Below, piece after piece: positions 5,560-34,200 of a stretch of 36,858 bases of DNA (positions are counted from its first letter, which is position 1; each line of letters begins with the position of its first letter). The notes beneath the pieces are model-generated. The model was not told the DNA's origin. It worked only from the letters and a program-made list of their open reading frames with translations, and did not search any database. This DNA comes from a virus, in the IMG/VR virus record IMGVR_UViG_3300045971_000265, positions 1 to 36,858 of that record. One strand, given 5' to 3'. A program made the position numbers and the translations under genes.

Positions 5560-5633
5560 CTACTATCACGCCTGCCCTTGACATACGGGCTGCTATGGTA
5601 TATGTAGCACGCAAGCGTTGACTACTATCACGC
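5560..5633 (+). repeat. ACTACTATCACGC repeat pair, upstream copy; includes long direct repeat 5561-5593
   Basis: CTACTATCACGC at 5560-5571 and ACTACTATCACGC at 5621-5633. The 33 bases at 5561-5593 recur at 6531-6563 with 26 of 33 identical. The downstream block again carries a second ACTACTATCACGC. The two blocks flank the 229-residue gene at 5755-6444. Confidence 0.75.
5578..5604 (+). promoter_or_regulatory. Possible sigma-70 promoter
   Basis: A perfect -35 box TTGACA (5578-5583) is followed after 15 bases by TATATG (5599-5604) with an extended TG before it. The string TATGGTATAT is shared with the portal promoter on the other strand. The spacer is short, so strength is uncertain. Confidence 0.4.
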
Positions 5634-5640
5634 GCCGGGC

Positions 5641-5656
5641 TAATTTTGCAAAATTA
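5641..5656 (+). repeat. 16-base palindrome TAATTTTGCAAAATTA, copy 1
   Basis: This perfect palindrome lies between the TTGACT at 5618-5623 (where it would cover the -10 position) and the strong promoter at 5660-5688, ending 3 bases before that -35 box. That placement would suit an operator or an UP-like element. Confidence 0.9.
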
Positions 5657-5754: not shown

Positions 5755-6444
5755 ATGAACGCAAAGACTGAAGGTGTAGTGGCTGTAGTGGTGGCAAACG
5801 TGGCCGTGGTATCCAAAATTGAAGGCGCAAACGCAAGCGCAAAGACTGCAGACACACTGGCACGCGAAGCGGCGACACTGGCGGACGCGTCTGACTACCT
5901 TGATATGGTTGATCTCGGGAAACGTCTTGACGCTATCCTTGCGCTTTATATGTCGGTGCTCACGCACAAAGCTGTGAAAGAGTCGTTTTCGGCCGCGCTC
6001 GCTATCCTTGTAGCGGACAAGCCCGTGCGCATCGAAGCGTCCGCAAAGACTGAAGCCGCAAACGGAAAGCTGACATTCAAGGCGCCGGAAGTGCTGGCGC
6101 CCGTGGCCGAAAAGAATGAAGTCGCCACGGCCGATAAGTCAATCACCACGCTAGAGCCCGGCGATGCCGTCATGCGCCTTGCGGCCGATACCATGAAGGC
6201 GGCCGCCACGGCAGCACGCAACACCATCGGCCGTGGCCGTGCGCAAGGTGGCGGCCGCAAGACCACGAAGGCGACGGAACGCGCGCCCTTCGCTGATGAA
6301 CTGGTCGCACATCTGGCGGACAAGGCGCTCGGGTTTGCGGTTGTCACCATCATCGAAACCGCGGCCAAAAACGACGCAGACTTGAAAGAACGCATCTTCA
6401 CCATGGCTATCAACCTTGGCGCGAAGCTGACGATCAAGAAGTAA
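5755..6444 (+). CDS. Unknown alanine-rich basic protein, 229 aa
   Basis: I do not recognise this family. It has a good ribosome site (TTAGGAG, 6 bases before ATG), a strong promoter upstream and a strong terminator downstream, so it is a single-gene unit and probably highly expressed early. The first 100 residues are Ala/Val/Lys-rich and helical (TLAREAATLADASDYLDMVD, LGKRLDAILALYMSVLTHKA), followed by a Pro/Ala/Lys linker. A basic Gly/Arg patch near 175-195 (GRGRAQGGGRK) could bind nucleic acid, and a helical C-terminus ends in LTIKK. No catalytic motif is seen. The stop TAA is also the first three bases of a palindrome copy. Possible roles, all unproven, are an abundant DNA-binding or host-takeover protein. 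Confidence 0.85.
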   Translation: MNAKTEGVVAVVVANVAVVSKIEGANASAKTADTLAREAATLADASDYLDMVDLGKRLDAILALYMSVLTHKAVKESFSAALAILVADKPVRIEASAKTEAANGKLTFKAPEVLAPVAEKNEVATADKSITTLEPGDAVMRLAADTMKAAATAARNTIGRGRAQGGGRKTTKATERAPFADELVAHLADKALGFAVVTIIETAAKNDADLKERIFTMAINLGAKLTIKK

Positions 6445-6457
6445 TTTTGCAAAATTA
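6442..6457 (+). repeat. 16-base palindrome, copy 2
   Basis: Identical TAATTTTGCAAAATTA. Its first three bases are the stop codon of the gene at 5755-6444, and it ends 28 bases before the terminator stem. Confidence 0.9.
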
Positions 6458-6694: not shown

Positions 6695-6710
6695 TAATTT
6701 TGCAAAATTA
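6695..6710 (+). repeat. 16-base palindrome, copy 3
   Basis: Identical palindrome in the middle of the non-coding region, preceded by GC and followed by AAGG as in copies 1 and 2. Confidence 0.9.
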
Positions 6711-7382: not shown

Positions 7383-7398
7383 TAATTTTGCAAAATTA
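7383..7398 (+). repeat. 16-base palindrome, copy 4
   Basis: Identical palindrome, here inside the transcribed leader between the promoter at 7291 and the ATG at 7440. It is the only copy followed by G rather than A. Confidence 0.9.
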
Positions 7399-8797: not shown

Positions 8798-8813
8798 TAA
8801 TTTTGCAAAATTA
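8798..8813 (+). repeat. 16-base palindrome, copy 5
   Basis: Identical palindrome ending directly at the AAGGAG ribosome site of the gene at 8825. It marks the left border of the MoxR-vWA module. Confidence 0.9.
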
Positions 8814-8824
8814 AGGAGCTACAA

Positions 8825-9994
8825 ATGGCACTCAAAGATTTCGCCCTCAAGGTATCACTCACGGTGCGTAAGCCTCAGCTTACTGCCAAGGATGACAAGG
8901 CCACCAACGACGCAGAGGTGGCCAACAACGCGCACAACGCTGGTGCGTATCGCAAGGAGCTGTATCCCAAAGCCCTTCTCGCTGGCATACAGGAGGCAGA
9001 GTCTGCCGCCCGTAGCTTTCTGGCACGGCGCTCTATCGAGGGGGTTATCCCGTCGGTCAAGTTCATGGAGTTCGCCAATGACTTCGCTAAATACGAACTC
9101 AGCTTCAATCAGGCTGTGACCGTGTTTATGCAGAACTACAGCAACGTGCTGATCGCTGCGCAGCAAAGCCAAGGCGCCATGTTCGACGCCAACCTGTACC
9201 CTGACATGGCATCGCTGCGGGCACGCTTCTCTTGGGAGGTCAACTATGAGCCCATCACGGACCATTCACTGTTCGGCCAGATACTTGGGCAGATGGAGGC
9301 ACCTGCTGCTGCGCAGCTTACTGCGTCGATTACCCGGCAGATGGCTGCGGAGCAGGACTCCATCACATCCACGGCAATCAACCGCCTGAAAGAAGTTGTT
9401 GCCCACATGGCTGTGGCTGTGACACGCCCTGACCGTGTAGTGACTGCAAAGAACGGTGCGCTGGAGAAACGCCCGCCTATCTTCCGCGCATCCATGGTGG
9501 AGAATATTGTGGAGATTACTGGCTTGCTCGAACAATACTCTGCCGCCCTGCCCGCTAACCTGTCAGCACTGGTGACTCAAGCCAAGGTGCTGACCACACA
9601 CAAGGCAGAGACGTTGCGCGATGACCCCGACATGCGCAAGACGATGGGCGAGAATGCCAAGGCGCTGCTGGCTGACATTGACGTGTTGATGGGGTATTCC
9701 CCGCCGGTGATTACTGTCATCGCACCGACCACCCCTGCCCCTGTGCCCACCGACCCGGCGATGCAGATGGAGCTGCTGCCCGAGCCGCCCGCTGAGATTA
9801 TCCTGACCCCTGATCCCATCCCTGTGGAGGAGAAGGTGGCTGTGTTGTCTGCGCTGGATGAGCTGGAGGCCAAGATCACCAACGCCACCGGCTTGCCCAC
9901 AACCCCTGTGCCCAAGGCATGGGTAGAGAAGAAGGCGCCCAAGGAATACGACATGGGTGGTTTGTTTGCAGCACTTGACGAGATGGAGGATTAA
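8825..9994 (+). CDS. DUF3150-like protein, 389 aa, first gene of MoxR-vWA module
   Basis: The first 300 residues resemble the DUF3150 family of unknown function: an early AYRKELYPKAL segment, then the paired helices KFMEFANDFAKYELSFNQAVTVFMQNY, given here only as KFMEFANDFAKYEL and FNQAVTVFMQNYSNVL. The motif NLYPDMASLRARFSWEV follows, and then a long helical part with Lys and Ala. Residues about 295-350 are a Pro/Thr-rich linker, and the C-terminus ends in a short acidic helix (GGLFAALDEMED). Phage proteins of this type tend to sit with a MoxR ATPase and a vWA protein, as here (10288 and 12339). It may be the substrate adaptor or the scaffold of that pair; this role is inferred. A strong AAGGAG ribosome site precedes the ATG. 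Confidence 0.65.
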   Translation: MALKDFALKVSLTVRKPQLTAKDDKATNDAEVANNAHNAGAYRKELYPKALLAGIQEAESAARSFLARRSIEGVIPSVKFMEFANDFAKYELSFNQAVTVFMQNYSNVLIAAQQSQGAMFDANLYPDMASLRARFSWEVNYEPITDHSLFGQILGQMEAPAAAQLTASITRQMAAEQDSITSTAINRLKEVVAHMAVAVTRPDRVVTAKNGALEKRPPIFRASMVENIVEITGLLEQYSAALPANLSALVTQAKVLTTHKAETLRDDPDMRKTMGENAKALLADIDVLMGYSPPVITVIAPTTPAPVPTDPAMQMELLPEPPAEIILTPDPIPVEEKVAVLSALDELEAKITNATGLPTTPVPKAWVEKKAPKEYDMGGLFAALDEMED

Positions 9995-10231
9995 ATGGCA
10001 ACTAAACCCAACAACACCGCGCCGATAGCACTGGTGCTGGTTGATGGGCAGTGGATGCTGCCCTTGGAGGATGGCATACAGCTGGTGCGCCTGCTGGCCA
10101 TGGCTGTGCCGATACAGCGTGACTATGTCTCTGGAGTTGGGTATCAGCCCAAGTTCTCCAAGCAGACCAAGGATTACACGATCACGCCTGTTACGGTCGC
10201 ACAGCTTGCGGCAATGAGTCTTGAAGATTAG
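9995..10231 (+). CDS. Unknown small protein, 78 aa
   Basis: The ATG follows the previous stop without a gap (TAAATG) and has a GGAGG site 4 bases before that stop, so it is co-translated with the DUF3150-like gene. It carries ALVLVDGQWMLPLEDGIQLVRLLAMAVP and a SGVGYQPKFSKQ-like segment. The beta-strand, helix order suggests a compact domain, but I do not recognise it. The next 56 bases (10232-10287) are T-rich and hold a weak ATTGA-TTTTG-TCAAT inverted repeat, no promoter and no clear terminator. Confidence 0.7.
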   Translation: MATKPNNTAPIALVLVDGQWMLPLEDGIQLVRLLAMAVPIQRDYVSGVGYQPKFSKQTKDYTITPVTVAQLAAMSLED

Positions 10232-10287
10232 GATTGATTTTGTCAATGTGTTAGTTTTTTGTTGGTACTTTTTAACTGGAGATAGAA

Positions 10288-11304
10288 ATGCGTATTGGTC
10301 ATATTGTTCCCCTTACCGTGAAGCGTTACCTGAACGAGGCAACGCGCAAGCGTGCCATGTTCCTCAAGGGCAAGTCTGGCATCGGCAAGTCCGACTGCGT
10401 GAAGCAGGCCAGCAAGCTGCTGTCCGAGCACATCCCCAACTGGCAAGGCGTGATCGACATTCGCCTGAGTCAGAAGGAACCCACCGACCTGTGTGGCCTG
10501 CCCTATGTGGACGATGGCAAGACGTACTACGCCAAGCCCTCGTTCATGCCAGAGGAAGGCACATGCGGGATCATCCTGTTCGATGAGATTACATCGGCTC
10601 CACCTGCTGTGCAGGCTGCCAGCTACCAGTACATCTTGGATCGCTGCTTGGGTGAGCATCGCATCCCTGATGGCTGGATGGTGATGGCTGCGGGCAATCT
10701 CACATCTGATCGTGGCGTCACATTCCAGATCGCTGCGCCACTACTGAACCGTATGTGTGAGATTGAGGTGGTGACTGTGCTGGATGACTTCATCAACCAC
10801 GCCATTCCTGCAGGTCTCAAGCCTGAGATTGCATCGTTCTTGAAGGACCGCCCTGAGTTCTTGCACAAGTTCGAGGGCAAGGGTGTGATCGAGCCGTTCC
10901 CTAGCCCACGCTCATGGTTCGCTGTGGGTGACACCATGGACTTGGACCTGCGCCCAGAGGATCGCATCGAGGTGTTCAAGGGTGACATCGGCTATGAAGC
11001 TGCCACCACCTTCGAGGTACACCTGCGGTTCTGGGAGACACTGCCACGTCTGGACGACATACTGGCTGGCAGGCCCACCACCATCCCCAAGGATGTGCAG
11101 GTGCAGTACGCCATCGTGATGGGCATCGCTGCTCGTGTCGATGCCAAGACCTTCGACAACGCATGGAAGGTGCTGGAGCATCTGCCCAAGGAGCTGCAGA
11201 CACTGTGTGTGAAGCTGGCGTACAAGCGTGACAAGGGCTTGGTAGCATCGCCATCGTTCACGGCATGGGCCACTGCGAATCAGGCAGCCTTTAAGCGGGC
11301 ATAA
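10288..11304 (+). CDS. MoxR-type AAA+ ATPase, 338 aa
   Basis: This is an ATP-driven remodelling enzyme of the AAA+ class. Walker A is GKSGIGKS (28-35), Walker B is IILFDE (95-100), the sensor 1 region is AAGNLTSDR (Asn137) and the arginine finger is in LLNRM (Arg155). The QAASYQYILDRCLGEHRIPDGW stretch (split here as QAASYQYILDR and LGEHRIPDGW) is the typical MoxR loop before sensor 1. MoxR proteins usually pair with a vWA-domain partner encoded close by, and such a partner is found at 12339. The ribosome site is GGAG, 8 bases before the ATG. The role in the phage is unknown; metal insertion, complex assembly or disassembly, or interference with a host system are all possible. Confidence 0.9.
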   Translation: MRIGHIVPLTVKRYLNEATRKRAMFLKGKSGIGKSDCVKQASKLLSEHIPNWQGVIDIRLSQKEPTDLCGLPYVDDGKTYYAKPSFMPEEGTCGIILFDEITSAPPAVQAASYQYILDRCLGEHRIPDGWMVMAAGNLTSDRGVTFQIAAPLLNRMCEIEVVTVLDDFINHAIPAGLKPEIASFLKDRPEFLHKFEGKGVIEPFPSPRSWFAVGDTMDLDLRPEDRIEVFKGDIGYEAATTFEVHLRFWETLPRLDDILAGRPTTIPKDVQVQYAIVMGIAARVDAKTFDNAWKVLEHLPKELQTLCVKLAYKRDKGLVASPSFTAWATANQAAFKRA

Positions 11305-11305
11305 C

Positions 11306-11551
11306 GTGGCGCGCAAGATGCACTGGGAGCATACCCACAAGGGGCTTGCTGCTGTGTACGACACTCGCACTAGCCAAGGGATGCGTGGGTCACAGATAGT
11401 CACTTCTATCTTTGCCCGCATCATGCCCAAGGAGTGCGGGGCTTACTACCTGATTGTGACAAACGATTGGGGCCGCACCAACATACGGGCGGAGACTGAG
11501 GCCCAAGGCAAGGCGATTGTTGAGGCAATGTGGGCGTTAGAGAATCACTAA
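11306..11551 (+). CDS. Unknown small protein, 81 aa
   Basis: It starts one base after the ATPase stop, at GTG 11306; an ATG at 11318 is an alternative. Neither start has a clear ribosome site, so translation may depend on coupling. The protein (MHWEHTHKGLAAVYDTRT, then ARIMPKECGAYYLIVTNDWG, ending with a helix) looks like a small alpha/beta domain. No known family was recognised. Being inside the module, it may act with the ATPase. Confidence 0.6.
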   Translation: MARKMHWEHTHKGLAAVYDTRTSQGMRGSQIVTSIFARIMPKECGAYYLIVTNDWGRTNIRAETEAQGKAIVEAMWALENH

Positions 11552-11571
11552 CTTATAGACTGGAGAGCGAC

Positions 11572-12312
11572 ATGAGAAGAACCAAGGATGTGGCAGAGGG
11601 CTTGCGCTACTGCCCGGAGAACAATAACCGGCATGGTGACTGGATCACTAACTGGGACAATGGCGTGAGGTACGTTAACCCGTGCGGGGGCATCGACGTG
11701 CTTGAGTCGGGTGTCATACACCTGACCTCTGCCGGAGACCGCAACGTGGACCTGCGCAACGCATGGCGTGACCGCTACGGCATTGACGTGATCAACATTG
11801 ACATCGACCGGCTCCCTGCCAAGATGTACGCGCCCAACTCAAACAAGGCCATACCTAAGAACGCGCTGCTGCAGACGCAGTTCTTGGTGGACCACGAGAC
11901 CGGCAGAGTGCTGGCCTTGAACCAACAACGTGGCCCCCTCCCCTACGCATACTGGCTGCACCCCGGCGCGCCAGCCAACACAGACGAGCAGCTGACGACA
12001 CGTGAGCGCAACCTGACGCGAGAGAAGGAGTGGAATGCAAAGTTCGCCCACGACATACTGATCGGCAGGGGCATCTGCGCGTTGAACAGCCACCATGAGA
12101 ATGCGCGGAACCACAGCGAGGTGAGCGGTACGTTAACGGCTTGGCTGAGAGGTACTGTCACGACGGACTGCATGCATGTGCGGTACCAGCAAGCTCTCGC
12201 GTTTGCCATGGAGCTGGGGTCATGGACTGATGAGTTTCGCAGCGCGACGGCAGACTTCAAAGAGTACAACTACTTGTGCTTGAAGCCGGATACATATACA
12301 CTGTGGGCTTGA
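11572..12312 (+). CDS. Unknown protein, 246 aa
   Basis: ATG 11572 was chosen over an in-frame ATG at 11530 because GGAG sits 8 bases before it and the earlier ATG lies inside the previous gene. The protein has NINID-type strands (DVINIDIDRLPAKMYAP), a Gln/Arg turn (VLALNQQRGPLPYAYWLHPG), a charged helix (TTRERNLTREKEWNAKFAHD) and aromatic residues at the end. Two Cys-Ala or Cys-Met sites show no metal pattern. I do not recognise it. It lies between the ATPase and the vWA gene and is the largest unknown of the module. Confidence 0.75.
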   Translation: MRRTKDVAEGLRYCPENNNRHGDWITNWDNGVRYVNPCGGIDVLESGVIHLTSAGDRNVDLRNAWRDRYGIDVINIDIDRLPAKMYAPNSNKAIPKNALLQTQFLVDHETGRVLALNQQRGPLPYAYWLHPGAPANTDEQLTTRERNLTREKEWNAKFAHDILIGRGICALNSHHENARNHSEVSGTLTAWLRGTVTTDCMHVRYQQALAFAMELGSWTDEFRSATADFKEYNYLCLKPDTYTLWA

Positions 12313-12338
12313 GATAACTGATTGACTAGGAGAACGAT

Positions 12339-13589
12339 ATGGAATCGCTTGAACTGAGACTTGAGACTAGCGCATCGAAGGTGTCACTGCGCGTGCCCTT
12401 CATCATGGCCGCTACCGGCCGGCTGCCACGGCAGGTCGTGGAAGACCCGCACATGACTGCCTGCACCAACGGGCAGTGGTTTCGCTTCGGCCGCAAATGG
12501 GTTGAGGAGAACGTGGTCGATGACGAGGAGCTGTTTGGCCTTGACCTGCACGAGCGCATGCATGTGGTGCTGATGCACATGTGGCGTCGTGAGGGCCGTG
12601 ACATGGGTATCTGGAATGTGGCCAACGATGCGATCATCAACGCCACCATCATCGCCATGGGGTACAAGCTGCCCAAGGGTGGTGTGCACATCCCATGGGT
12701 CAATGACCAGATGGGTTCGGAGGAGGTATACCAGAAGCTGATGGAGGAGATGAAGAACCAGCCCAAGCCACAACCCGGCAAGGGCGGCAAGGGCGACGGC
12801 CAAGGCCAAGGTTCCCCCGGCGATGCTGATGGTGAAGGTGAGCCCGGCGACAGCAAGGGCAACGGCTCCGGCAAGCCCAAGCACGACAAGTACCGCGACG
12901 GTGGATGGGGCGGCACTGGCGATCTTGAGGACGCACCAGACGACGCGTCCGTGGCTGACATGGAGGCAACCATACGTGCTGCTGCCCAGATGGCGCGTGA
13001 CTGTGGCGATGGCTCCTCGCTGGTCAATCGCATCCTTGGTACTACCCCCAAGGCAACGGTGAACTGGAAGGACGAGGTACGCGCTGCGCTGACATCATCG
13101 GCACGCGATGACTTCTCATTCCGTCGCCTCTCGCGTCGGTTCATTGGCCGTGGTATGTACATGCCGTCGCTGCGCTCGGATGCCATGGGCGGACTGCTGA
13201 TTGGGTTCGACACATCGGGCTCCATGAGCAAGGAAGATTGCGACCAAGTAGCTGGTGAGATACAAGGCATAGTCGATGACCTGTCGCCCGATTGGGTTGA
13301 GGTTGTGTACTGTGACTCCACCATCACAAGCGTGCAGCGGTTCGACAAGGGTGATGAGCTGATGCTGGTCCCAACGGGTGGCGGCGGCACGGCGTTCCTG
13401 CCGGTGTTCAAGCACGCTGACAAGCTGAATGAGCAGGGTGACAAGGTAGCGGCCCTGATCTATCTGACCGACATGGAAGGCAATCTGAAGGAGCTGGATG
13501 AGCCTGAGTTCCCTGTGGTGTGGGGCTGCGTGTATCAGCATCGTGACATGACCGCGCCATTCGGCTCGGTGGTGAAGGTGGTTGTATGA
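12339..13589 (+). CDS. DUF2201/vWA protein, metallopeptidase-like, 416 aa
   Basis: The N-terminal part is of the DUF2201 putative metallopeptidase type: LDLHERMHVVLMHMWRRE holds an HExxH motif at 71-75, followed by WNVANDAIINATI. A Gly/Lys/Asp/Pro-rich linker (about 140-200) leads to a C-terminal vWA domain with MIDAS motif DTSGS (291-295), the second MIDAS Thr in GGGGTAF (Thr351) and LTDME (Asp378). vWA proteins of this type work with MoxR ATPases; here the ATPase is two genes upstream. Whether the HExxH cuts peptide bonds is unknown. The ribosome site is AGGAG, 7 bases before the ATG. Confidence 0.85.
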   Translation: MESLELRLETSASKVSLRVPFIMAATGRLPRQVVEDPHMTACTNGQWFRFGRKWVEENVVDDEELFGLDLHERMHVVLMHMWRREGRDMGIWNVANDAIINATIIAMGYKLPKGGVHIPWVNDQMGSEEVYQKLMEEMKNQPKPQPGKGGKGDGQGQGSPGDADGEGEPGDSKGNGSGKPKHDKYRDGGWGGTGDLEDAPDDASVADMEATIRAAAQMARDCGDGSSLVNRILGTTPKATVNWKDEVRAALTSSARDDFSFRRLSRRFIGRGMYMPSLRSDAMGGLLIGFDTSGSMSKEDCDQVAGEIQGIVDDLSPDWVEVVYCDSTITSVQRFDKGDELMLVPTGGGGTAFLPVFKHADKLNEQGDKVAALIYLTDMEGNLKELDEPEFPVVWGCVYQHRDMTAPFGSVVKVVV

Positions 13590-13684
13590 GCAGCACATAC
13601 CCACAGACCATGCCCATGCACAACGGCGCGCTCACATCTGCGGCACAGGCGTATGACAATGCCAACCCCAAGCCGCCGAACTAA
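13586..13684 (+). CDS. Small protein, 32 aa, coupled to the vWA gene
   Basis: It overlaps the vWA stop by four bases (ATGA) and ends on the TAA that opens palindrome copy 6. The sequence (MSSTYPQTMPMHN..., ending ANPKPPN) has an AAQAYDNANP segment like small acidic/Pro-ended phage proteins. Being so short, it is supported only by the exact overlap at its start and by filling the gap to the palindrome. Confidence 0.5.
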   Translation: MSSTYPQTMPMHNGALTSAAQAYDNANPKPPN

Positions 13685-13697
13685 TTTTGCAAAATTA
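13682..13697 (+). repeat. 16-base palindrome, copy 6
   Basis: Identical palindrome. It begins at the stop codon of the 32-residue ORF and ends 13 bases before the ATG at 13711, just ahead of its GGAG site. It marks the right border of the MoxR-vWA module, and no further copy follows. Confidence 0.9.
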
Positions 13698-13710: not shown

Positions 13711-13977
13711 ATGGCTGCTGACTATGAAGTAATTGACCGACTCAAACGCATCGAGACAAAACTCGTGCGGTTTGCAGAGGAGCTGGGCATCGACACCGAT
13801 GTGACCAGAGATTGGATCACGGTAGATGAACCCAACAAGGTAATCTATCTGTCGACCATGGGGCGTTCACTCGCCGTGATGAAGATTGAGGCCAAGCGCA
13901 GGGGCGCCACCAGCAAGCTGACTTACGACGTGGTGCACAAGGGTAACGTGGTGGCAACACTGACGTTGGACGAGTAA
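13711..13977 (+). CDS. Unknown small protein, 88 aa
   Basis: Good GGAG site 8 bases before the ATG. A helix (VIDRLKRIETKLVRFAEELG) is followed by four predicted strands (WITVDEPNKVIYLSTM, SLAVMKIEAKR, KLTYDVVHKG, NVVATLTLDE), a compact alpha-beta domain. No known family was recognised. It is the first gene after the last palindrome, so it may open a new transcription unit, though no promoter is seen. Confidence 0.75.
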   Translation: MAADYEVIDRLKRIETKLVRFAEELGIDTDVTRDWITVDEPNKVIYLSTMGRSLAVMKIEAKRRGATSKLTYDVVHKGNVVATLTLDE

Positions 13978-17904: not shown

Positions 17905-18512
17905 AACCCGGGGTAGCGCCGGGACCGGGGCAGCTCCGGCCAATCGGACTGCTGGGGGAAAGCCCATACAGACTGTGCCCGGTGCCAGACCCGGTAGATG
18001 AGGACGCGTTTGACGAAGATGTGTACAGCAGCGTGCAGTTCGTGCTGCAGACAGGGCGAGTGTATGTAGAGGGTATATCACACAGTGTTATACAAGAGCA
18101 GCATCGCTACGACTACACGCGAGCAGATGCACAGAGATTCCGCGCGGAACTAGCGGATAAGGAGCGAGCATGGGGAGCACGTCGCGCGGAACGAGCCGCT
18201 GATCTGCGTATGCAGAGCGCCGCTGACGCGGGTATGCAGGCAGATATAGACAGTGACCTAATTCGCAAACGAAACATTCTAAAGGCGGTCAAAGTCTATA
18301 TAGATAGCACGCTTGGGGTTCTGTGGCGTAAGTCCGCGGCAGGACGCTCCATATACATAGTCGCTAGAACTACCAGCGCTACGGCATACCTACGACAGCA
18401 ATCGTACACAAGACACACTATAGAACTGAAATTTGTTGGTGTTGACGAGCTGCGCGCCGACGTAGATGACGCACAAATAAAGCTTTGTGAAATACTGAAC
18501 GAGGAAAAATAA
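17901..18512 (+). CDS. Unknown protein, 203 aa
   Basis: ATGA overlap with the previous stop and a GGAGG site 6 bases upstream. The first 45 residues are Pro/Gly-rich, followed by an acidic stretch (DPVDEDAFDEDVYSS), a charged helical part (AELADKERAWGARRAERAAD) and a C-terminal alpha-beta part ending in EILNEEK. Codon use is less GC-rich than neighbours in the last third. It ends one base inside the polymerase start (TAATG), so it is coupled to polymerase translation. Not recognised. Confidence 0.75.
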   Translation: MKPGVAPGPGQLRPIGLLGESPYRLCPVPDPVDEDAFDEDVYSSVQFVLQTGRVYVEGISHSVIQEQHRYDYTRADAQRFRAELADKERAWGARRAERAADLRMQSAADAGMQADIDSDLIRKRNILKAVKVYIDSTLGVLWRKSAAGRSIYIVARTTSATAYLRQQSYTRHTIELKFVGVDELRADVDDAQIKLCEILNEEK

Positions 18513-20362
18513 TGAAACAAATAACCGCAGACTTTGAGTCGTACTACGACCCCACTTACTCACTGACCAAGATGCAAACAGATGCCTACGTGCTATCTGA
18601 TCTATATCAGACCATGGGTGTTGCCGTGAAAGTGGACGACGGGGTTACCCACTGGTTTACCGGCACAGAGGAGGAGACCAGCGACTTCCTGCACGAATTC
18701 GACTGGAAGAATTCCGCCGTGATGTGCCACCACACCCTGTTCGACGGGTTCATCTTCGCCCAGCGGTTTGGTATCAAGCCCAAGCTGTGGATGGACACCA
18801 AGAGCATGGCTACCGTTCTCTACCCGTATCTGCGCTCGTACTCGCTGGCCAATCTGGCCAAGACGTTCGGGCTGCAGGACAAGGGTGATGCTGTCGTGAC
18901 CATGATAGGCCGTCGCCGTGAGTCGATGAATCCGATCGAAGCACATGACTACGGTGAATATTGCATCAACGATGTGGAGATTACCTACCTGTTGGGCAAG
19001 AAGATGCTGCCGTACATGCCGGCGCTGGAGCTGCGTCTGATCGACATGACTGTGCGCATGTTCACTGAGCCCGTGTTTGTGGGTGATGTGCCCCTGCTGG
19101 AGAAGCTGTACGCCGACGAGCAGGCCCGCAAGATAGCCATCATGGCGCTGGCGGGCACGGACAAAGAGACCATCATGTCCAACGACAAGTTTGCCAAGGC
19201 GCTCGAACAGCTGGGCGTGGTGCCACCCAAGAAACTCTCTGCCAAGACCGGCAAGGAGTCATGGGCGTTTGCCAAGACAGATGAGGCGTTCACCGCGCTG
19301 CTGGAGCATGAGGACTCTGACGTGCAGGCGCTGGTAGCCGCACGCCTTGGTGTCAAGACCACCATCGCAGAGACCCGTGCGCTGAAGATGCTGGAGACCG
19401 CGCGCCGTGGCAAGCTGCCCGTGTACCTCAACTACTGGGGCGCCAAGACTACTGGCCGGTATTCTGGGGGTAACTACATCAACTGGCAGAATCTGCCCGC
19501 CCGCGGGCCGTCTGCTGGCATGCGCAGGGCCATTGGCGTCTCGCCCGGGCACGTCATGGTGGTGGGTGACTCATCCAACATCGAGCTGCGGGTGGCCATG
19601 GCCGCTTCGATGCAGGACGATTTGATCGCGCTCATCCTTGCTGGTGAAGACCTGTACTGTAACTTTGCCACAAAGATGTTCGGCCGGATCATAACCAAGG
19701 CAGACAAGAAAGAGCGTCTGCTGGGCAAGATCGCCATGCTGTCCCTGCAGTACGGCGCTGGGTGGCGCAAGTTCAAAGAGATGGTGCGCCAGCAGTCAGG
19801 CGATGTGCTGAGCGACGAGAACGCTGAAGGCATCGTGAACCTGTACCGCCGCGTGCACCACAAGGTTGTGGACATGTGGGCCCGGTTTGACAATGTCATC
19901 CTGCCAGAGATTTTCAACGGCAACCAGAACCTGATCACGGTTGAGGAGCATGCATGGTGCCTGTGCACCGGGCTTGGCTACGGTGTGGCTGGTGGCCCCG
20001 GCGTAGCGTATCTAGACCTGCGTCGTGAGTCCGTGACTGACAAGTACGGTCGCCCCGGCGAGCAGTGGGTCTACACCATGGGCAGCAAGACTGTGAAGCT
20101 GTATGGCGGCAAGGCGTTTGAGAACTACTGCCAGCACGTGGCCCGGCAAATTGTGATGTGGCAGACCGCGCGCATCAACCACCGCTACCCCGTTGCACTG
20201 TCGGTGCACGACGAGGCCGTATGTGTGGTGCGTGAAGAAGAACGTGATGCGTGCGTGGCGTACATGACCGAGTGCTTGAACATGGCGCCGCCATGGTGCG
20301 CTGGGACAATCCCGCTGGCCTGCGAAGTGCACTCCGGGTACAACTATGAGGAGGCAAAGTAA
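18512..20362 (+). CDS. DNA polymerase, family A, with 3'-5' exonuclease domain, 616 aa
   Basis: The replicative polymerase of the phage. The N-terminal proofreading exonuclease has Exo I ADFES (Asp7, Glu9), Exo II HHTLFDG (Asp78) and Exo III YCINDVEITY (Asp154). The polymerase domain has TGRYSGG...INWQNLPARG, motif A GDSSNIELR (Asp353; the usual DYSQIELR reads DSSNIELR), motif B RLLGKIAMLSLQYG (Arg402, Lys406, Tyr414) and motif C HDE (566-568). There is no 5'-3' exonuclease domain. Phage family A polymerases of this size are common in podovirus-like phages that use separate helicase-primase proteins, as here (25021). The start shares one base with the previous stop (TAATG). Confidence 0.95.
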   Translation: MKQITADFESYYDPTYSLTKMQTDAYVLSDLYQTMGVAVKVDDGVTHWFTGTEEETSDFLHEFDWKNSAVMCHHTLFDGFIFAQRFGIKPKLWMDTKSMATVLYPYLRSYSLANLAKTFGLQDKGDAVVTMIGRRRESMNPIEAHDYGEYCINDVEITYLLGKKMLPYMPALELRLIDMTVRMFTEPVFVGDVPLLEKLYADEQARKIAIMALAGTDKETIMSNDKFAKALEQLGVVPPKKLSAKTGKESWAFAKTDEAFTALLEHEDSDVQALVAARLGVKTTIAETRALKMLETARRGKLPVYLNYWGAKTTGRYSGGNYINWQNLPARGPSAGMRRAIGVSPGHVMVVGDSSNIELRVAMAASMQDDLIALILAGEDLYCNFATKMFGRIITKADKKERLLGKIAMLSLQYGAGWRKFKEMVRQQSGDVLSDENAEGIVNLYRRVHHKVVDMWARFDNVILPEIFNGNQNLITVEEHAWCLCTGLGYGVAGGPGVAYLDLRRESVTDKYGRPGEQWVYTMGSKTVKLYGGKAFENYCQHVARQIVMWQTARINHRYPVALSVHDEAVCVVREEERDACVAYMTECLNMAPPWCAGTIPLACEVHSGYNYEEAK

Positions 20363-21741: not shown

Positions 21742-22045
21742 GGAGGGGGATGTGAAAACAGAAGTGAAGCGCGTGTTAGCGACGTACGGTGACAAGGTGT
21801 GGTGGTTCATGCCAGTGCCCACGGGATTTGGTGTGCAGGGCGTGCCCGACTTCGTATGCAGTTTACGCGGCCGCTTCGTCGGCATTGAAACCAAGTTTGG
21901 CTCCAATGGCCTGACCAAGTTTCAGATCAAGCAGATGGATGCAATCATCAAGACCGGCGGCATGCACATGGTAATCAACGAGCACAACGTGAAAGACCTG
22001 ACTGCTGTCATCGACGGCATCATGGCACTGGAGGATTCGGAGTAA
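21719..22045 (+). CDS. VRR-NUC-type nuclease, 108 aa
   Basis: A small PD-(D/E)XK nuclease: VKTEVKRVLATYGDKVWWF, then GVPDF (Asp44) and GIETKFG (Glu57, Lys59), and KFQIKQMDAI. VRR-NUC proteins in phages often sit beside an SNF2 helicase as here. ATG 21719 overlaps the previous gene by 23 bases; ATG 21734 and GTG 21752 (the latter with AGGAGG 5 bases before it) are alternatives. The EGDVK segment is usual at the start of these proteins, which favours one of the two ATGs. Confidence 0.85.
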   Translation: MSLPSMRKEGDVKTEVKRVLATYGDKVWWFMPVPTGFGVQGVPDFVCSLRGRFVGIETKFGSNGLTKFQIKQMDAIIKTGGMHMVINEHNVKDLTAVIDGIMALEDSE

Positions 22046-23595
22046 TGCTAGTTCTACCTGACAAACATTTGCTGGTCATCGACACCGACGCATACGCGCA
22101 GGTGAAGGCGGCCATACCCCACTCCAAGAGTTTCATGCACGAGGGCAATCAGCTTGTGGCGCTGCACCATGGCCCGGAAGAATCCATCGTGTTGAAAAAC
22201 ATTGGACTCAAGATACCTGAACCCATCAGGCACTACTACGCATGGCCCGGGCGCTTCAAGCCCATGGATCACCAGAAGGATACCTCTGCGTTCCTGTCCA
22301 TGAACCGCAAGGCACTGTGTCTCAACGCGCCGGGTACTGGCAAGACGATCAGTGCGCTGTGGGCCGCAGACTATCTGCTGGAGGCCGGAGTCGTCCACAG
22401 GATTCTAATTATTGCGCCGCTGTCCACAGTGAACGTGGTGTGGGGCCGTGAGATATACCACCACCTGCCACACCGCAGCTTGGATGTAGTTGTGGGCAGT
22501 CGTGAGAAGCGCATCGAGCTGCTGGCCAAGAAGGCGCAGTACTGCATCATCAACCACGATGGCTTCACAAACATGGCTGCGCATCTGTCGGACTTTGACC
22601 TTGTCATCTATGACGAGGCCACTGCGCTGAAGACCCCGGGGTCGCAGCGGTACCGCCTGTTTGCCAAGTGGTGCGCAGCACACAACCCATGGCTGTGGAT
22701 GCTCACCGGCACACCAATCTCGCAGTCTCCTGTGGACGCATGGACGCTGGCCCGGCTGGTGAACTCGCCCACTGTGCCACGCAGCTTCACAGCATTTCGT
22801 GATGCCGTGATGAACAAGGTGACTACGTTCAAGTGGGTGCCACGCAGTGACGCGCTGGAGACATGCAAGAAGGTGTTGCAGCCTTCGATCAGGTTCAGTC
22901 TTGACGAGTGCATGGACCTGCCGCAGACAAACTATGTGGGCCGTCAGTGTGCCATGTCCAAGCCGCAAGAGAAGGCGTTCAAGGACATGCAGGACCACAG
23001 CATTGTCATGTTCAAGAACAAGGACGTGACTGCTGCGAACGCTGCTGTGACGCTCGGAAAACTTTTGCAAATTTGTTGCGGTGTTTTGTATGGAAATGAC
23101 AAAGAACGTATTGCGGTAGACGCCACACCGCGCTATAATGCACTTACTGAACTGATAGATGAGATAGGCGACAAGGTAATAATTTTCTGCCCGCTGCGGG
23201 GCGTACAGGACTGGCTCTACAACGAGCTGTCTAAGCAAGGGTACGACGTAGCGACTGTGCATGGTGATGTGTCGAAAGCAGATCGCAATACGATCTTCAG
23301 CGACTTCCAGAACACAGAGAAAATTAGAGTGTTGTTGGCACACCCCAAGGTGGCGGCCCACGGGCTGACCCTGACGAGAGCGAAGGACATTATCTGGTTT
23401 GCGCCTATCTACAGTCTCGAAAGTTATGAACAAGCCTGCGCTCGTATCCGTCGCCTGACTACATCAGGCAAGACAACGGTGTGGCACTTGTATGCAACCA
23501 AGTTTGAAGCGGAGTTATATCGTAGACTTCGCCTCAAGCAGAGAGTCCTGACAGACTTTCTGAAGCTCGTTTCGGGCATAAATGACGATCAGTGA
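22045..23595 (+). CDS. SNF2-family helicase/translocase, 516 aa
   Basis: An ATP-driven DNA translocase of superfamily 2. Motif I is LNAPGTGKT (Lys100), motif II is YDEAT (Asp190, Glu191), motif III is LTGTP (220-224), and the second lobe has VHGDVSKADR, HPKVAAHGLTLT and YEQACARIRR (motif VI). The length matches the short phage SNF2 proteins that lack extra domains. It may remodel forks or recombination intermediates along with the nucleases upstream and the ssDNA-binding protein downstream. The start shares one base with the previous stop (TAATG). Confidence 0.92.
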   Translation: MLVLPDKHLLVIDTDAYAQVKAAIPHSKSFMHEGNQLVALHHGPEESIVLKNIGLKIPEPIRHYYAWPGRFKPMDHQKDTSAFLSMNRKALCLNAPGTGKTISALWAADYLLEAGVVHRILIIAPLSTVNVVWGREIYHHLPHRSLDVVVGSREKRIELLAKKAQYCIINHDGFTNMAAHLSDFDLVIYDEATALKTPGSQRYRLFAKWCAAHNPWLWMLTGTPISQSPVDAWTLARLVNSPTVPRSFTAFRDAVMNKVTTFKWVPRSDALETCKKVLQPSIRFSLDECMDLPQTNYVGRQCAMSKPQEKAFKDMQDHSIVMFKNKDVTAANAAVTLGKLLQICCGVLYGNDKERIAVDATPRYNALTELIDEIGDKVIIFCPLRGVQDWLYNELSKQGYDVATVHGDVSKADRNTIFSDFQNTEKIRVLLAHPKVAAHGLTLTRAKDIIWFAPIYSLESYEQACARIRRLTTSGKTTVWHLYATKFEAELYRRLRLKQRVLTDFLKLVSGINDDQ

Positions 23596-28044: not shown

Positions 28045-28276
28045 TGCGGGCATACGAGCGGTTCTTGCTTGCAGGGATCGCTCGCAGGTTACTACGCGCC
28101 AGCGGGTTACCGCCCTTTACCAGCGGCTTGATGTGGTCTACATCCTTGCCGTCCCCCTTGTGCACTATCCCGGCCTTAGCCATCTCCCGGCGGGCCTGAT
28201 TGCGCTCAGAGCGTTTGTGAATCTGGTCGGGGCTCGACTGGTACCGAGCGTATTCCTGTGCGTAGTTACGTGCCAT
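28022..28276 (-). CDS. HNH endonuclease, 84 aa
   Basis: The motif VDHIKPLVKGG (Asp47, His48), SNLRAI (Asn63) and KNRS (Asn72) is a full HNH signature. A basic N-terminal helix (IHKRSERNQARREMA) would contact DNA. The start overlaps the stop of the 2042-residue gene by one base (TAATG), with AAGGAAG upstream. HNH enzymes in the late block often help genome packaging; a homing role is the other option. It converges with the primase gene by a 23-base overlap with no terminator between. Confidence 0.88.
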   Translation of the reverse strand: MARNYAQEYARYQSSPDQIHKRSERNQARREMAKAGIVHKGDGKDVDHIKPLVKGGNPLARSNLRAIPASKNRSYARTKSAGMK

Positions 28277-31200
28277 TACAGGTTCTTCCTTAGTTCAGTT
28301 AGCTTCGCATCCCTGCGGGCTTCAAGCGCCTTGACGGCGGCAAGACTATCCGCCCGGGGTATCTTACCAAGATTGGCCGCGCGCTTGGCGTTGCTTATAT
28401 CTTGGTCGAACGCGCGTTTGGTGCGGTTTATCTCCAGCTCCAGACTCTTGGCGGTTTCCGCGTTGTCTACAGCCGATACGGGGGCAAGTAGTTTGCGCGT
28501 GGCTACCACAGCAGTGTCCTGCCCATGGCCCAACAACCCGGGCTTGCTCTCGAACGTCTTGTGGTTCACCAGCGGAGGGGTGAACTGCTCGGCCATGCGC
28601 AGCGCACGGGTTCCGATCTTATCCGCGGTGTTGTCGGTCTCTTTGTTGAGCGGCTTGCCGAGATATGGGTCGTACCCAAACGCGTACATCATCGCCGTTG
28701 TAAACGGGTTGTTCGGTGTGACGGCCGACGGCATAGAGTTCCATCCAAGGAACCCGTTCGGGGCGTCGGAGAACTCTAGCGGGGACGGCATAAACCACTT
28801 GGCTGCGTCAAAGTACACGTCGTTGCCATTGTGCTTTCCAACATTCCACGACTTGTTTGCACCGAACCACGTCTTACTATCCTTGTGCGCGCGGGCGCGC
28901 TTCTTCTCATCATCAGGTCCGCCGTTCATAGCGGTAAATGCCCCGGACACCATGGCGTACCCCATCGCCAACGACGCTATTTTCCACGGCTCGTGCTTAG
29001 CGATGTGAGCCAGCAATCCACCCATGGCGAACGGCCACGACGCGAACGGCAGCGGCCCCTTGCGCAGCAGGTTAAGCAGACGTGAGTCGTTGTCGTAGTT
29101 GAGGAACTTGTGCGTAGCCGCAGCCCCAGCGTTTGACTCCATGTCCGCTTTGGACAGGTGAGCCTCATCCCGCTGTTGCCGAGCCATCTCCGTCATAAAC
29201 GCCGCTAGTCGGAATGCGTTGTCCCCCGCTCCATATACTTCCTGCATAAAGTCGTCTGCGCGCTTGCCCTTCTTGGCGGCCAGCGCAGCGATCTTCTCCG
29301 CTAGGTGGCTCTCATACCCAGCCCAGTGGCGTAGCGTAGCAAGCATGCCGGGGCTCGCCGACTCGGTCTGCGCGGCCATGCCTTCATACATGATCTGCTT
29401 GACTTCGTGGGTAGCCCAATCACCGACGGTGGCCCCAGAATGGAAGAAGGCGGCCATGATGGCATGCTCGTCCTTGGACAGCTTGCCCATGCCGGTTGAG
29501 TACCGGATATAAAGCCCCAGCGCATCCTTCACAGACGCGATAGGAATGTTGTTGAGGTACGCCAGTGTCACGTTGCCCATGATGTTAGTGACGTGTGTCG
29601 GTGGGTTGTACACCGTCTTCATCTTCTTGAACGTGGACAGCAGCGAGTTGTACGCCCGCAAGTCCGATGCTGCCGTGCGGGTCACTGCGTCCTGCAGCCT
29701 AGACCATACTGGCCCTTCAACTATCTTACCCGCCAGATCGCCGTAGGCATCTGTTTTTGGAGCCTGCACCCAGTTCCCCGGCTTACGGTTCTCCCACTGC
29801 ATGGGGGCACTGCTGTTGTCAGGGTCAGACATGTCAGAGATAAACACGTCTGCTTTGTTTGGGTCCGACTTTTGCAGATGCGCCAGCAGCGCTTCCTTGT
29901 CCTCGAACACCCGGTTCTCCTTAGCCCCTACGCTGGATATGTCCCGTACCAGCTTGCGCGTGGCTACAGCATTGGACAGGATAGACACCGTGTTGAGGAA
30001 AGATGTGGCGACCACGTCTGTCTCGCGTCCCTTGGCTTTTGGGTCAGCCATGACGCTCTGCACCGTGTCTACCTTGCGGAAACGCAGCCCGTCGCCTTGG
30101 CCTTCGGGCATAGCCACTGCCTCTTTCACGCGGTATTGCTCCAGCTTATTGGGCACCGACTCACCCACACTGGCGTCAGGCTTGAACCCAGCCAGTTCGG
30201 ACTCGTGCACCATACGGTGCACGGCCTTGGGCGCTGCGCTCTTGCTGGCGTACGTTGGGTAGAACCTACCCCGCACGCTACGCTCGCCGCTGGGCGTCAT
30301 GGGGGCTATAACAAATTTGCCGCCGCCATCATCTGACAGCGCTATATCCACAGTGGCGCGGTCTAGTTTGCCCTCGCGGGCCCCCAGCGCAGAGCCTTGA
30401 ATCTCGCGCGCGTGCAGCGCGTATGTAAGCATTTCAGACGGCAGCAAACCCTCGAAGCGCTGGGCCACTTCAGGCTTAGACGCCGCGATCATATTCGTTA
30501 TGGCCTCGTGGGCAGCCACAATACGGTGCTGTACGTTTTCGTGCAGGTCGGTCGTGGCCGTGCCCTTGTCCTTGGCGTAGGCGTCCATGAAGTCCATAGC
30601 CTTTATAACTTCGGCTTGGTCTACGTGGGCCATCCACTCACCCAGCTTAGAAGCTGCCGTAACGGCCGCGTTTCGCTCGCGCTTGTAGACCTCCACCGCC
30701 TTGGCCATCTTCTCCGACACCGGCACATCGGCGCTTACCCACCCGACGAACGCAGCTAGGTTGGGGGAGAACTTCTCTAGCCCTTCGTACGATTTCTTGG
30801 CCCACGCATCCATCTTCTGCATGGTAGGGCGATCCCCGGCATACATACCCGGCAGCATAGCCGCAAATATGCGCTCGCCTATTGCCTTGGTGGGGGCGTA
30901 CTTCTCGCCGTACTTAACTTCCGGCACCTGTATCACGCCGTTGACCGGAGCAGACACGGCTTGTGCGTGGAACACGCCGTCCAGTTCTGGCTGGCGCTCC
31001 ATGGCCATGCCCGCCTTGGCCGTGATGAACTCAGCATCTGTAGCGTGGGCTACTGGGCGCGAGCCAATCAGTGTGTGCGACATATTGATGAACTGGGACA
31101 GCGCCTTTTCTTCAGCGAACGGCAGCCCCAGCATCATGCGAATCTGGCGCACAAACTTGGTAAGCATGTTGCCCATGGCGCTCACAACAGTTTCGTTCTT

Positions 31201-34200
31201 GGACGCGCCCATGCGCTCCATAGCGCTGCGGAAATCTTCGTGGGTAAGCCCATAAGACACGAACTCATGCACCCCCTTCTTGGGGTCAGCGAGGTCCGCC
31301 ATTGCTTTGTCGCCAAGCGCCGTACGCACATCTTCAAACGCCTTGGTCTTGAGGGTCTTTAGAACCTCCTTGCGCAGCGCATCGAGCCCGCGGACCAGTG
31401 CTGTGTCCTTACCGGCGTGGATAATCCCGCCGACAACGGCGTGCAATATCTCGTGGAGCACAACCTCATTGCTGTGCCCGTCCATGCCTATGTGTATTGT
31501 GGCCCGCCCGTTGGCAAACTCCGTCAAGCCCAACTTAGTGGGCGGGGTAGTCTTTGTCTCGGACAGTGACCTCTCTCCGCCTCTGCCAAACTTGTGGTTC
31601 TCGTTATAGAACTCCATCGTAGGCGGAGCAATCCCATTAGCGGCTGCGCGCTTCATAGCGGAGTTCAGCACGGACGCCAGCCGACGTACGAAGGCGTTGT
31701 GCACCCCACCGTGCATCATGTACTGCAGTACAGCTTCAGCGCCTCCAGCATACTTTAGCTTGGTCTTCCCACGATACCCGCCAGACGCCGTGAACCCGTG
31801 AATATACGCATCGGCTAGTTTGCTCTCTTTGAAGTCGCCCAGCTCCCTGCGCTCCCGAATGTCTTTGCTGGTAGTGCCGTGCAGCGGTTTGTCTTTAGCC
31901 AGATACCCCAGCTGCCAATCACTGTGGTGGATGCTGAATCGGGTGGACTCGCTAGATTGATTTCCGCCTTCGGCCTGACTTCCGCCAATAGACTTTGGCC
32001 CTTTGAGGTAGTCCTGCGCCTTGCTAATATTGGCGTGGCCGACAAGCTGTTCCAGCTTGCTCATCTCTGACACTAGCTTGTTGCCGTTCTCCGTTAGCCG
32101 TATATGGAGTTCGTCATCGGCGCCTTCAATCTTGGCCCGCTGGTCCCCCTTGGTAGAGCTGCCCAGCTCGTCAATCAGTGCCTCGCGGCGCTTAGTCAGG
32201 TTGTGGATAGCCTCTATGTGATTAACAACTGTGTCACGAATGCCACCCAGCCCCTTGGTGATTGGGTTGTCGTAGTCGCCTTTGATGGCCGGCATCAGCG
32301 CCTTGGCAACGACTTCGTCTTCTTTGCCCATGAACGCTTTGCGCTTCACAGGCTTGGTCTTGGTGCCAGCGCTTAAATCTTCGAGCGAGGAAGTTTTGGT
32401 ATCCCCGGTATCTTCACTGACAGCTGCTTTACCTTGGGTATCTTGTCCGGTGCTGGGGCGGCCAGCTTCGGCGGTCTTCCCCCCATTGGCATCGCGGGCT
32501 TGCGTATCGACCCCGACACTTCCTTCGGCTGCCCCTTGCTCATCCCCCGCAGGTATGGTTTCACGATTGGCATCTTGGCTCCTGTCTACATCTAAGGTTG
32601 GTTTGGGCGGGTTCAGGCGATCCGCGCGCACTTGTTCAGCGGTGCGGTTGCTGCCGTCTTCCTGACCGATATGCTCCCGTATCTGCGTGGCAATACGCTC
32701 CGACTCAGTAGCTGTAGCCAGCATCTTGTCAGCAGCTGCTTGGGCTTCGTCGCGCTGGGCCTCCAGCTCGGCCCGGGTCTTCTTGGAGGCCCGCTTGGAC
32801 AGGGCGTCCAGACGTTGCTGCGCAGTTTTCGCCGCCGCTGCGGGGGCTTCCGACTGAGCGCGCAAGTCCACTGCCGTCGCCTCGTGGGTGTCGGCGGTCT
32901 TGTGCATCTCCTCAACTGGGTCTGGCTTGGCCACAGGCTCGGGCGCTGGGCGCTCCGGCGGTGCCGTCGTCACTTCTGGGGTTGTGATGTCGGCTTCTGT
33001 GTCGCCATACATGCCACGGCGCGCCAGCTCCTCGCGCTGCGCGTTTATCCGGTCGGTGTACACATTGCTGCGCCCCGACGCCCGGCCCTGCTCGAAGGTG
33101 CTCTGGACGGCATCAAACTCCTCGTGGGGGACGACGTTGTTGTCGCGGGCACTGCGTTCAGCTGCCGTGTCGTACAGCTCTCGCGCCGTTGGCGTGTGCC
33201 TGCGCAAGTTGAACATTGGCCCCATCATGGCGCCACCAACAGCAGCGCCAATGCCCGCGCTCTCGGCACCTTCGGTCAGGTCTTCCTTACCTGCGCCGTA
33301 GTTCTGCCACATGGCCCCGGCGTATCCCAGCGGGTATCCCTGCAACGCCTGAGACGCCGACGCGCCACTGAGCCGGCCTGCGGTGTCCAGCATCGTTTGC
33401 GTGCGAGATAGCGCCGCTGGGCGGGCCGCAGCCAGCAAGTCCATAGCCTCGTGCGTAGCGATGGGGGTCAGCACACGTCCGCCCGCCATAGCCGTTGCGG
33501 GGGTCTCCAACCCCAGCTTATTTGCCAGCTTGCCGCCAGCGGCCATAAACGCAGCATCAGTAGCTCCGCGCCCCATAGCCGCCCATGCTTGGCGCTCTTG
33601 GTCTGGGGCGTCGGGAGAGACGCCAGCCATCTGGGCACCAGCCGATACCGCCCCTTGCCCGACACCGCCCATAACGCCGGGCGCCCATGAGCCCATGGCT
33701 CCGGCAGCACGCAGGCCGTACGCCGTTGCCTGCAGCCCTTTAGTAACTGCCCCGCCAGCAAGCAGGCTAGGCACGGTCTCAACCACCCCGCCAATACCAG
33801 CCCGTGGGTTTCCAACGTGCGCGCCGACCTTCTCCATGAAGGTAGCATTGGGGTCTTGGGTTACAGCGTCTATCGCTGCCTGCGACGCTTGGCGTTCAGG
33901 CGAGTAGTTACGGGTCTGGGCTTCTGCCCAGTTGTCAGGATGTACACCGGTAGCGTCAGCCAAAAACTCCCCGGCCCGTGCCATGGGGCGGTACCCCGTG
34001 GTGGCTGCTATCGGCAGATCAATAAGCCCGCCTACGGCGCCCGGCAGCTTGGCAATGCCGCGCTTCACGTCCGTGATTGAGTCCTTCAGGAAGTTGTCGT
34101 TCTGGTCTGGGTTGCTGGGGGCTGGGCCATGCACCCAGCCGACCTTGGTGTTAAGGCGCGCAGGGGCGTTCTCGTGCACCCAGCCGACCTTGGTAGTGGG

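Follow-up and report, generated by a model that had tools for sequence, protein, structure and literature searches.

In midasin, NorQ-NorD, CbbQ-CbbO and RavA-ViaA an AAA+ ring is coupled to a substrate-gripping von Willebrand factor A (vWA) domain with a metal ion-dependent adhesion site (MIDAS). These systems have known cellular targets, are either fused or two-component, and have no DUF3150 partner. The MoxR-vWA pair is also already known in phages. Here we describe a viral locus in which such a pair is accompanied by a third conserved gene, encoding a DUF3150-like protein. The DNA analysed (the window) is the IMG/VR virus record IMGVR_UViG_3300045971_000265, which has 36,858 bases and 57% G+C. 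The same three genes are linked in related viruses and, in another order, in bacterial loci, most of which carry conjugation genes nearby. This combination of three genes, found in phages and near conjugation genes, appears to be undescribed in the open literature searched. No paper on DUF3150 was found by a text search of open-access articles, subscription papers being outside its scope.

Several viral systems invite comparison. The genes gp24 and gp25 are core genes of the N4-like phages and are middle-expressed in N4 (PMC4193335). As in the window, N4-like phages (Schitoviridae) have a MoxR gene followed by a gene for a DUF2201-vWA protein, ahead of the DNA polymerase. In group 2.2 jumbo phages, MoxR and a metallopeptidase-vWA fusion have been proposed as chaperone and cochaperone for virion assembly (PMC7824862), and the architecture of the vWA protein is the same as in the window. 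Both groups differ from the window in the third gene: DUF3150 is undetected in the N4-like phages LUZ7 and nACB1, and none was found by the pair in four large phages (PA5oct, Munch, Phosso and G). The archaeal virus ATV likewise pairs a viral MoxR ATPase with a vWA protein. Its MoxR protein p618 is a virion component, binds the vWA protein p892 and virion proteins, is linked to tail development and has further partners that stimulate the ATPase (PMC4124505). The ATV system lacks a peptidase domain (PMC7824862) and no DUF3150 is reported for it. MoxR-vWA ternary conflict systems are known with a VMAP or beta-propeller third component and effector domains (PMC7159879). In contrast, Pfam scans of the window found neither VMAP nor beta-propeller domains, and bpMoxR reached just E 0.028 in one relative, below the cut-off.

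The closest counterpart outside viruses is a cassette on Burkholderiales plasmids, in which the three families are adjacent on one strand. The cassette differs from the window in its order (MoxR-DUF3150-VWA), in a Walker B motif that mostly reads DD, and in its neighbours, which belong to type IV secretion systems (T4SS) or to PRTRC. The open literature yielded no published function for it. In the PRTRC cassette, ThiF- and ParB-related genes stand beside the triad; neither had a Pfam match among the window proteins scanned, which did not include every small open reading frame (ORF).

In IMG/VR, 39 related viral loci (L021-L059) were found. A bacterial scan with three plasmid DUF3150 queries and one genome per species gave 63 loci. 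The loci were extracted with 8 kb on each side, and the counts that follow depend on profile thresholds; E-values of weak matches are those of single searches, uncorrected for multiple searching. The three genes are on one strand in 80 of the 80 loci that hold them, and their order is fixed within each group. It is DUF3150-MoxR-vWA in the window and in the 36 related viral loci with all three genes, and MoxR-DUF3150-vWA in 43 of the 63 bacterial loci. Two bacterial loci without MoxR are cut off by a contig edge 137 bases ahead of DUF3150. Of the 45 nearer bacterial loci, which are mostly from Burkholderiales, 38 have a homolog of the T4SS protein VirB4 no more than 8 kb away and nine have a PRTRC gene. 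Among annotated plasmids the triad is present in four, two of them with T4SS genes alongside.

A preliminary description of the window had proposed a remodelling pair of MoxR and vWA proteins, a possible peptidase and unknown partner proteins, and suggested that they may attack or protect a large complex. The pair, the possible metallopeptidase domain and a conserved third partner are supported. Absence of the gene combination from other phages, named there as a refuting outcome, was not seen: co-occurrence of the genes extends beyond the 36 viral loci to the cultured cyanophage MinM2, where MoxR, DUF3150 and VWA genes lie within 4.5 kb. In all 11 cultured phages inspected, a MoxR gene is followed by a vWA gene on the same strand. 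A DUF3150 gene is detectable in MinM2 alone; a profile hidden Markov model (HMM) found none near the pair in LUZ7, nACB1, phage G, phiFa, CRP-7, S-TIM5, PA5oct, Munch, Phosso or CR9.

The DUF3150 assignment depends on relatives. The window protein itself has no match to PF11348 of Pfam at E 1. Its first 289 residues are conserved and about 42% identical to the 293-aa homologs of two relatives (G001 and G002), and the C-terminal part of about 100 residues is specific to the window and mostly of low confidence in the structure model. The G001 homolog (43% identical) matched PF11348 with E 1.8e-4 and 21.3 bits, under the gathering cut-off of 24.9, and as a query it retrieves plasmid genes, one of them annotated DUF3150. 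One homolog from the bacterial scan (L115) scored 47.3 bits, above the cut-off. Homologs were found in all 39 viral loci, and the top-ranking viral match by fold is a protein that bears the name DUF3150 (42% identity). Because the window protein misses the gathering score and the homology runs through intermediates, we call it DUF3150-like; the same label in the preliminary description thus holds by way of the relatives and not for a direct match. The AlphaFold model (predicted local distance difference test, pLDDT, 79) consists largely of helices, with a strand element at the N terminus, and a PDB fold search with it gave no match with E < 0.1.

The MoxR and vWA proteins were recognised directly, as the preliminary description had stated. 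The MoxR protein matched AAA_5 of Pfam (E 3e-6, 27.7 bits, cut-off 22) and PHROG 1297, labelled 'ATPase' (E 9e-74). Walker A (GxxGxGKS) and Walker B (DE) are present in it and in nearly all viral homologs, and a vWA partner gene is adjacent. A profile of the protein and its relatives found midasin as the best PDB match (E 6e-41), with CbbQ/NorQ also matched. RavA was absent among the 60 best PDB matches, and Pfam reported no RavA C-terminal LARA/triple-helical domain in the 338 residues. Identity to the LUZ7 MoxR is 28%. The window groups with its viral relatives in the trees (support 100/100). In the bacterial triads (L060-L104), Walker B reads DD instead of DE in 37 of 42 MoxR proteins, and the viral proteins keep DE. 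ATP hydrolysis by the DD form may be slow or regulated.

In the vWA protein, DUF2201_N (E 2e-28, 100 bits, Pfam cut-off 23.2) and DUF2201 (E 8e-21, 75 bits, cut-off 26.4) are well above threshold. HExxH occupies residues 71-75 and the MIDAS is complete (D291-x-S293-x-S295, T351, D378); both are invariant in a 12-member alignment of phage and plasmid proteins. A model of the vWA part resembles vWA domains in a fold search, including the MIDAS domain of midasin and NorD; midasin, NorQ-NorD and CbbQ-CbbO are the kinds of systems that provide the closest solved structures to the window proteins. The window protein and all 35 full-length viral homologs preserve HExxH, which is lost in 5 of 43 bacterial homologs. 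The MIDAS DxSxS is retained in every homolog, viral and bacterial, so the MIDAS is more likely to be the indispensable site. The pattern of conservation suggests that peptidase activity is optional. The label 'HNH endonuclease' of PHROG 1314 is wrong, since the family is that of the DUF2201 metallopeptidase-vWA proteins; the label has propagated to many phage records (including L013, L014 and L138).

All seven ORFs of the preliminary description are present on the plus strand (Table 1), and the membership of the cluster changes. The two small proteins between the major genes are conserved. An HMM built on homologs in 22 viral loci matches the 78-aa protein (E 6e-10), which also matched PHROG 4367 (E 1e-4). 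The 81-aa protein is matched by an HMM built from the homologs of relatives (E 1e-4), and its family occurs in 33 loci. The 260-aa ORF is not a member: no homolog was found in Pfam, PHROGs, PADLOC, NCBIfam, a phage tblastn search or the related loci. The 32-aa ORF probably lies outside the module as well, because about 25 nt separate the vWA and 88-aa genes in G001. The 88-aa gene, found immediately downstream of the vWA gene in 35 relatives, is a member that stands outside the pair of palindromes.

These palindromes had been taken as brackets around the module. The two flanking copies of the 16-bp sequence TAATTTTGCAAAATTA are indeed exact, but six exact copies are present in the window, all within 5.6-13.7 kb, with zero near-misses and a chance expectation of 0.01. 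In the relatives the element reads TAATCCC-RY-GGGATTA, and 209 sites with distinct surroundings were collected across the 39 loci, of which 38 carry it (L046 is the sole locus without). It lies near the start of the DUF3150 gene in 35 of 39 loci, of the MoxR gene in 36 of 38 and of the vWA gene in 30 of 36. Module boundaries or mobile-element ends are rejected as readings of the palindrome, since in relatives the element precedes individual genes and early genes generally; the two copies taken as brackets are thus two neighbouring, putative regulatory sites. In 96 of the 209 cases the preceding ORF ends on the TAA of the element, and in G001 ten of ten sites fall inside the first 9.2 kb of 58.9 kb.

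The window and the relatives differ in the core of the element. Set against the window form TAATTTTGCAAAATTA, the counterpart in relatives is TAATCCCRYGGGATTA: the TAAT...ATTA ends are shared, and CCC is replaced by TTT in both halves of every window copy. IMG/VR scans with the window core found no other virus with several copies; the matches came one per contig and are therefore taken as chance. The centre of all 209 sites in relatives is purine-pyrimidine (AC 89, AT 54, GT 49, GC 17), and an A directly before or a T directly after the element is almost never seen. The simplest reading is that the palindrome is a putative binding site of a dimeric early-gene regulator whose specificity differs between the window and its relatives. 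Differing cores with shared ends are as expected if operator and regulator changed together. An RNA hairpin is less likely, because the four centre combinations fit independent half-sites TAATCCCR and several variants would break the stem, although the excess of AC over GT (89 versus 49) speaks against dismissing it. A sigma-70 promoter is also less likely; no -35/-10 boxes align at a fixed distance and promoter-like sites occur no more often than by chance.

A second, non-palindromic motif, (A)ACTACTATCAY, occurs on the plus strand of the window at 5561, 5623, 6531 and 6567 and in the relatives (L021-L059). In 485 kb of the relatives it is found 136 times on the plus strand and never on the minus strand, where permuted 8-mers average 4.9 copies. 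It is confined to the coding strand of the early region, often with a spacing of 9-36 bases and near the first palindromes. These copies may be repeats of an origin, or an array that serves an early promoter or regulator.

The left end of the window carries portal (SU10-type) and terminase genes on the minus strand. The cluster, whose ORFs are all on the plus strand, belongs to a rightward region from about 5.6 kb, and from its position we read this as the early region. The cluster genes lie upstream of the DNA polymerase and helicase and on the strand opposite to portal and terminase. A giant virion RNA polymerase is a mark of the Schitoviridae (N4-like phages); the 2042-aa protein of the window matched no Pfam or PHROG family, and its G001 relative (2328 aa) is just 29% identical across about 800 residues. 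Rfam families were absent from the window, and a nucleotide search with the window against phage records gave no match.

Table 1. Coordinates of the features in the window.
Feature	Position	Strand	Remarks
Palindrome, further copy	5641..5656		
Palindrome, further copy	6442..6457		ORF 5755-6444 ends on its TAA
Palindrome, further copy	6695..6710		
Palindrome, further copy	7383..7398		
Palindrome TAATTTTGCAAAATTA	8798..8813		Precedes DUF3150-like gene
DUF3150-like protein, 389 aa	8825..9994	+	Proposed third subunit; homology via relatives
Small conserved protein, 78 aa	9995..10231	+	Between DUF3150-like and MoxR genes
MoxR/midasin-type AAA+ ATPase, 338 aa	10288..11304	+	Walker A and B intact; Pfam, PHROG, PDB profile
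Small conserved protein, 81 aa	11306..11551	+	Between MoxR and vWA genes
260-aa ORF	11530..12312	+	Window-specific insertion between 81-aa and vWA genes
DUF2201 metallopeptidase-like domain (HExxH) and vWA domain, 416 aa	12339..13589	+	Complete MIDAS; Pfam, alignment, fold match
32-aa ORF	13586..13684	+	Overlaps vWA stop codon; probably no module gene
Palindrome	13682..13697		Precedes 88-aa gene; 32-aa ORF ends on its TAA
Conserved 88-aa protein	13711..13977	+	Cluster member outside the palindrome pair
DNA polymerase A	18512-20362		Downstream of early region
PD-(D/E)XK nuclease			After early region
SNF2-type helicase	22045-23595		
Primase/helicase-like protein			After early region
2042-aa protein	28276-34404	-	No family match

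We lean modestly towards reading the cluster as a MoxR/midasin-type protein-remodelling machine with a dedicated third component, made early and acting inside the cell. The MoxR protein would assemble a ring ATPase, as its family suggests. By analogy with midasin, NorQ-NorD and RavA-ViaA, the DUF2201-vWA protein would dock on this ring and its MIDAS metal site would grip an acidic ligand of the substrate. ATP hydrolysis would then pull on or dissociate the bound substrate or complex, as envisaged for the same systems and for ATV p618-p892, and the HExxH domain may cleave or hold the substrate. The DUF3150-like protein would be a subunit or target adaptor of the machine, as suggested by a strict linkage to MoxR and vWA that holds for two kinds of mobile element and two gene orders. 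The machine would probably be made before virion proteins, given its location in a region with a repeated palindromic regulator site. Because the triad also lies beside bacterial conjugation genes, an intracellular complex met by mobile DNA as it enters or replicates is a likelier target than a part of the virion; these bacterial copies and the early position here both favour an intracellular target.

Several observations weigh against such a machine. Gene linkage by itself is no proof of a complex. Phages that have the pair with no detectable DUF3150 mean that DUF3150 is not universally required. In the MoxR tree, triad and pair-only systems are intermixed, and a branch with support 100/99 unites CRP-7, MinM2 and a plasmid triad. 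The triad is therefore not one clean lineage, and DUF3150 was gained or lost more than once or has been overlooked in some systems. In 18 distant bacterial loci (L105-L122, from Planctomycetota, Deltaproteobacteria and others) no vWA gene was seen. Most of them have an AAA gene upstream of DUF3150, and the three tested were all ordinary AAA proteins (PF00004). DUF3150 may thus be a more general AAA+ partner. These distant genes also lie near helicase or methyltransferase genes. Finally, the record of the PA5oct MoxR homolog carries a mass-spectrometry note (ESI-MS/MS, electrospray ionisation tandem mass spectrometry), which may indicate virion association.

The main rival is a machine for virion assembly or maturation, with structural proteins as the substrates that the pair folds, assembles or processes by proteolysis. 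The PA5oct note would fit this reading. Such a role has been proposed for the group 2.2 jumbo phages, whose metallopeptidase-vWA fusion is the same (PMC7824862), and has been partly shown for p618/p892 of ATV, where p618 is in the virion (PMC4124505). The S-TIM5 pair sits among structural genes, and in phage RPP1 a structural module lies near gp24/25 (PMC4193335). However, N4 gp24/25 are middle genes (PMC4193335), the triad is also found on plasmids and beside T4SS genes, in elements that make no virion, and the window cluster is in the early region by replication genes, on the strand opposite to portal and terminase. We regard a virion role as unlikely here, though it deserves serious weight.

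A narrower form of the intracellular machine would act in counter-defence or host takeover and dismantle a host complex that blocks incoming DNA. The presence of the triad in both phages and contigs with conjugation genes, its early position and the known ternary conflict systems (PMC7159879) are all consistent with this. PADLOC, however, matched no family apart from one marginal match (E 0.009), no known anti-defence genes were recognised near the cluster, and no target candidate has emerged, which makes this version improbable at present. The claim that DUF3150 and MoxR-vWA are independent genes held together by shared regulation or co-transfer would suit the pair-only phages, the DUF3150 genes with other AAA proteins and the separate upstream element that is usual for each gene in relatives, but it is very doubtful in view of the single strand in 80 of 80 loci, the two orders in two element groups and the AAA+ gene that accompanies DUF3150 even where vWA is lacking.

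The remodelling machine that we favour can be extended into a bolder and distinctly speculative proposal: DUF3150 would define a ternary AAA+ remodelling machine of mobile elements that phages and conjugative elements share, its target would be a host complex that every incoming DNA encounters, such as a barrier to replication or a defence, and in this phage group the 16-bp operator core of the dimeric regulator would have changed at all six sites together.

The role of the genes in phage had been called not established. This is true of the target; the pair itself, however, was already described in N4-like phages (PMC4193335), jumbo phages (PMC7824862) and ATV (PMC4124505). Relabelling PHROG 1314 corrects a database annotation. 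Conjugative plasmids with the triad are laboratory systems that need no phage culture. Since the triad occurs both in phages and next to conjugation genes, the search can focus on a target that the two share, and the conserved third gene is a candidate third subunit for the MoxR-vWA pairs of N4-like and many jumbo phages.

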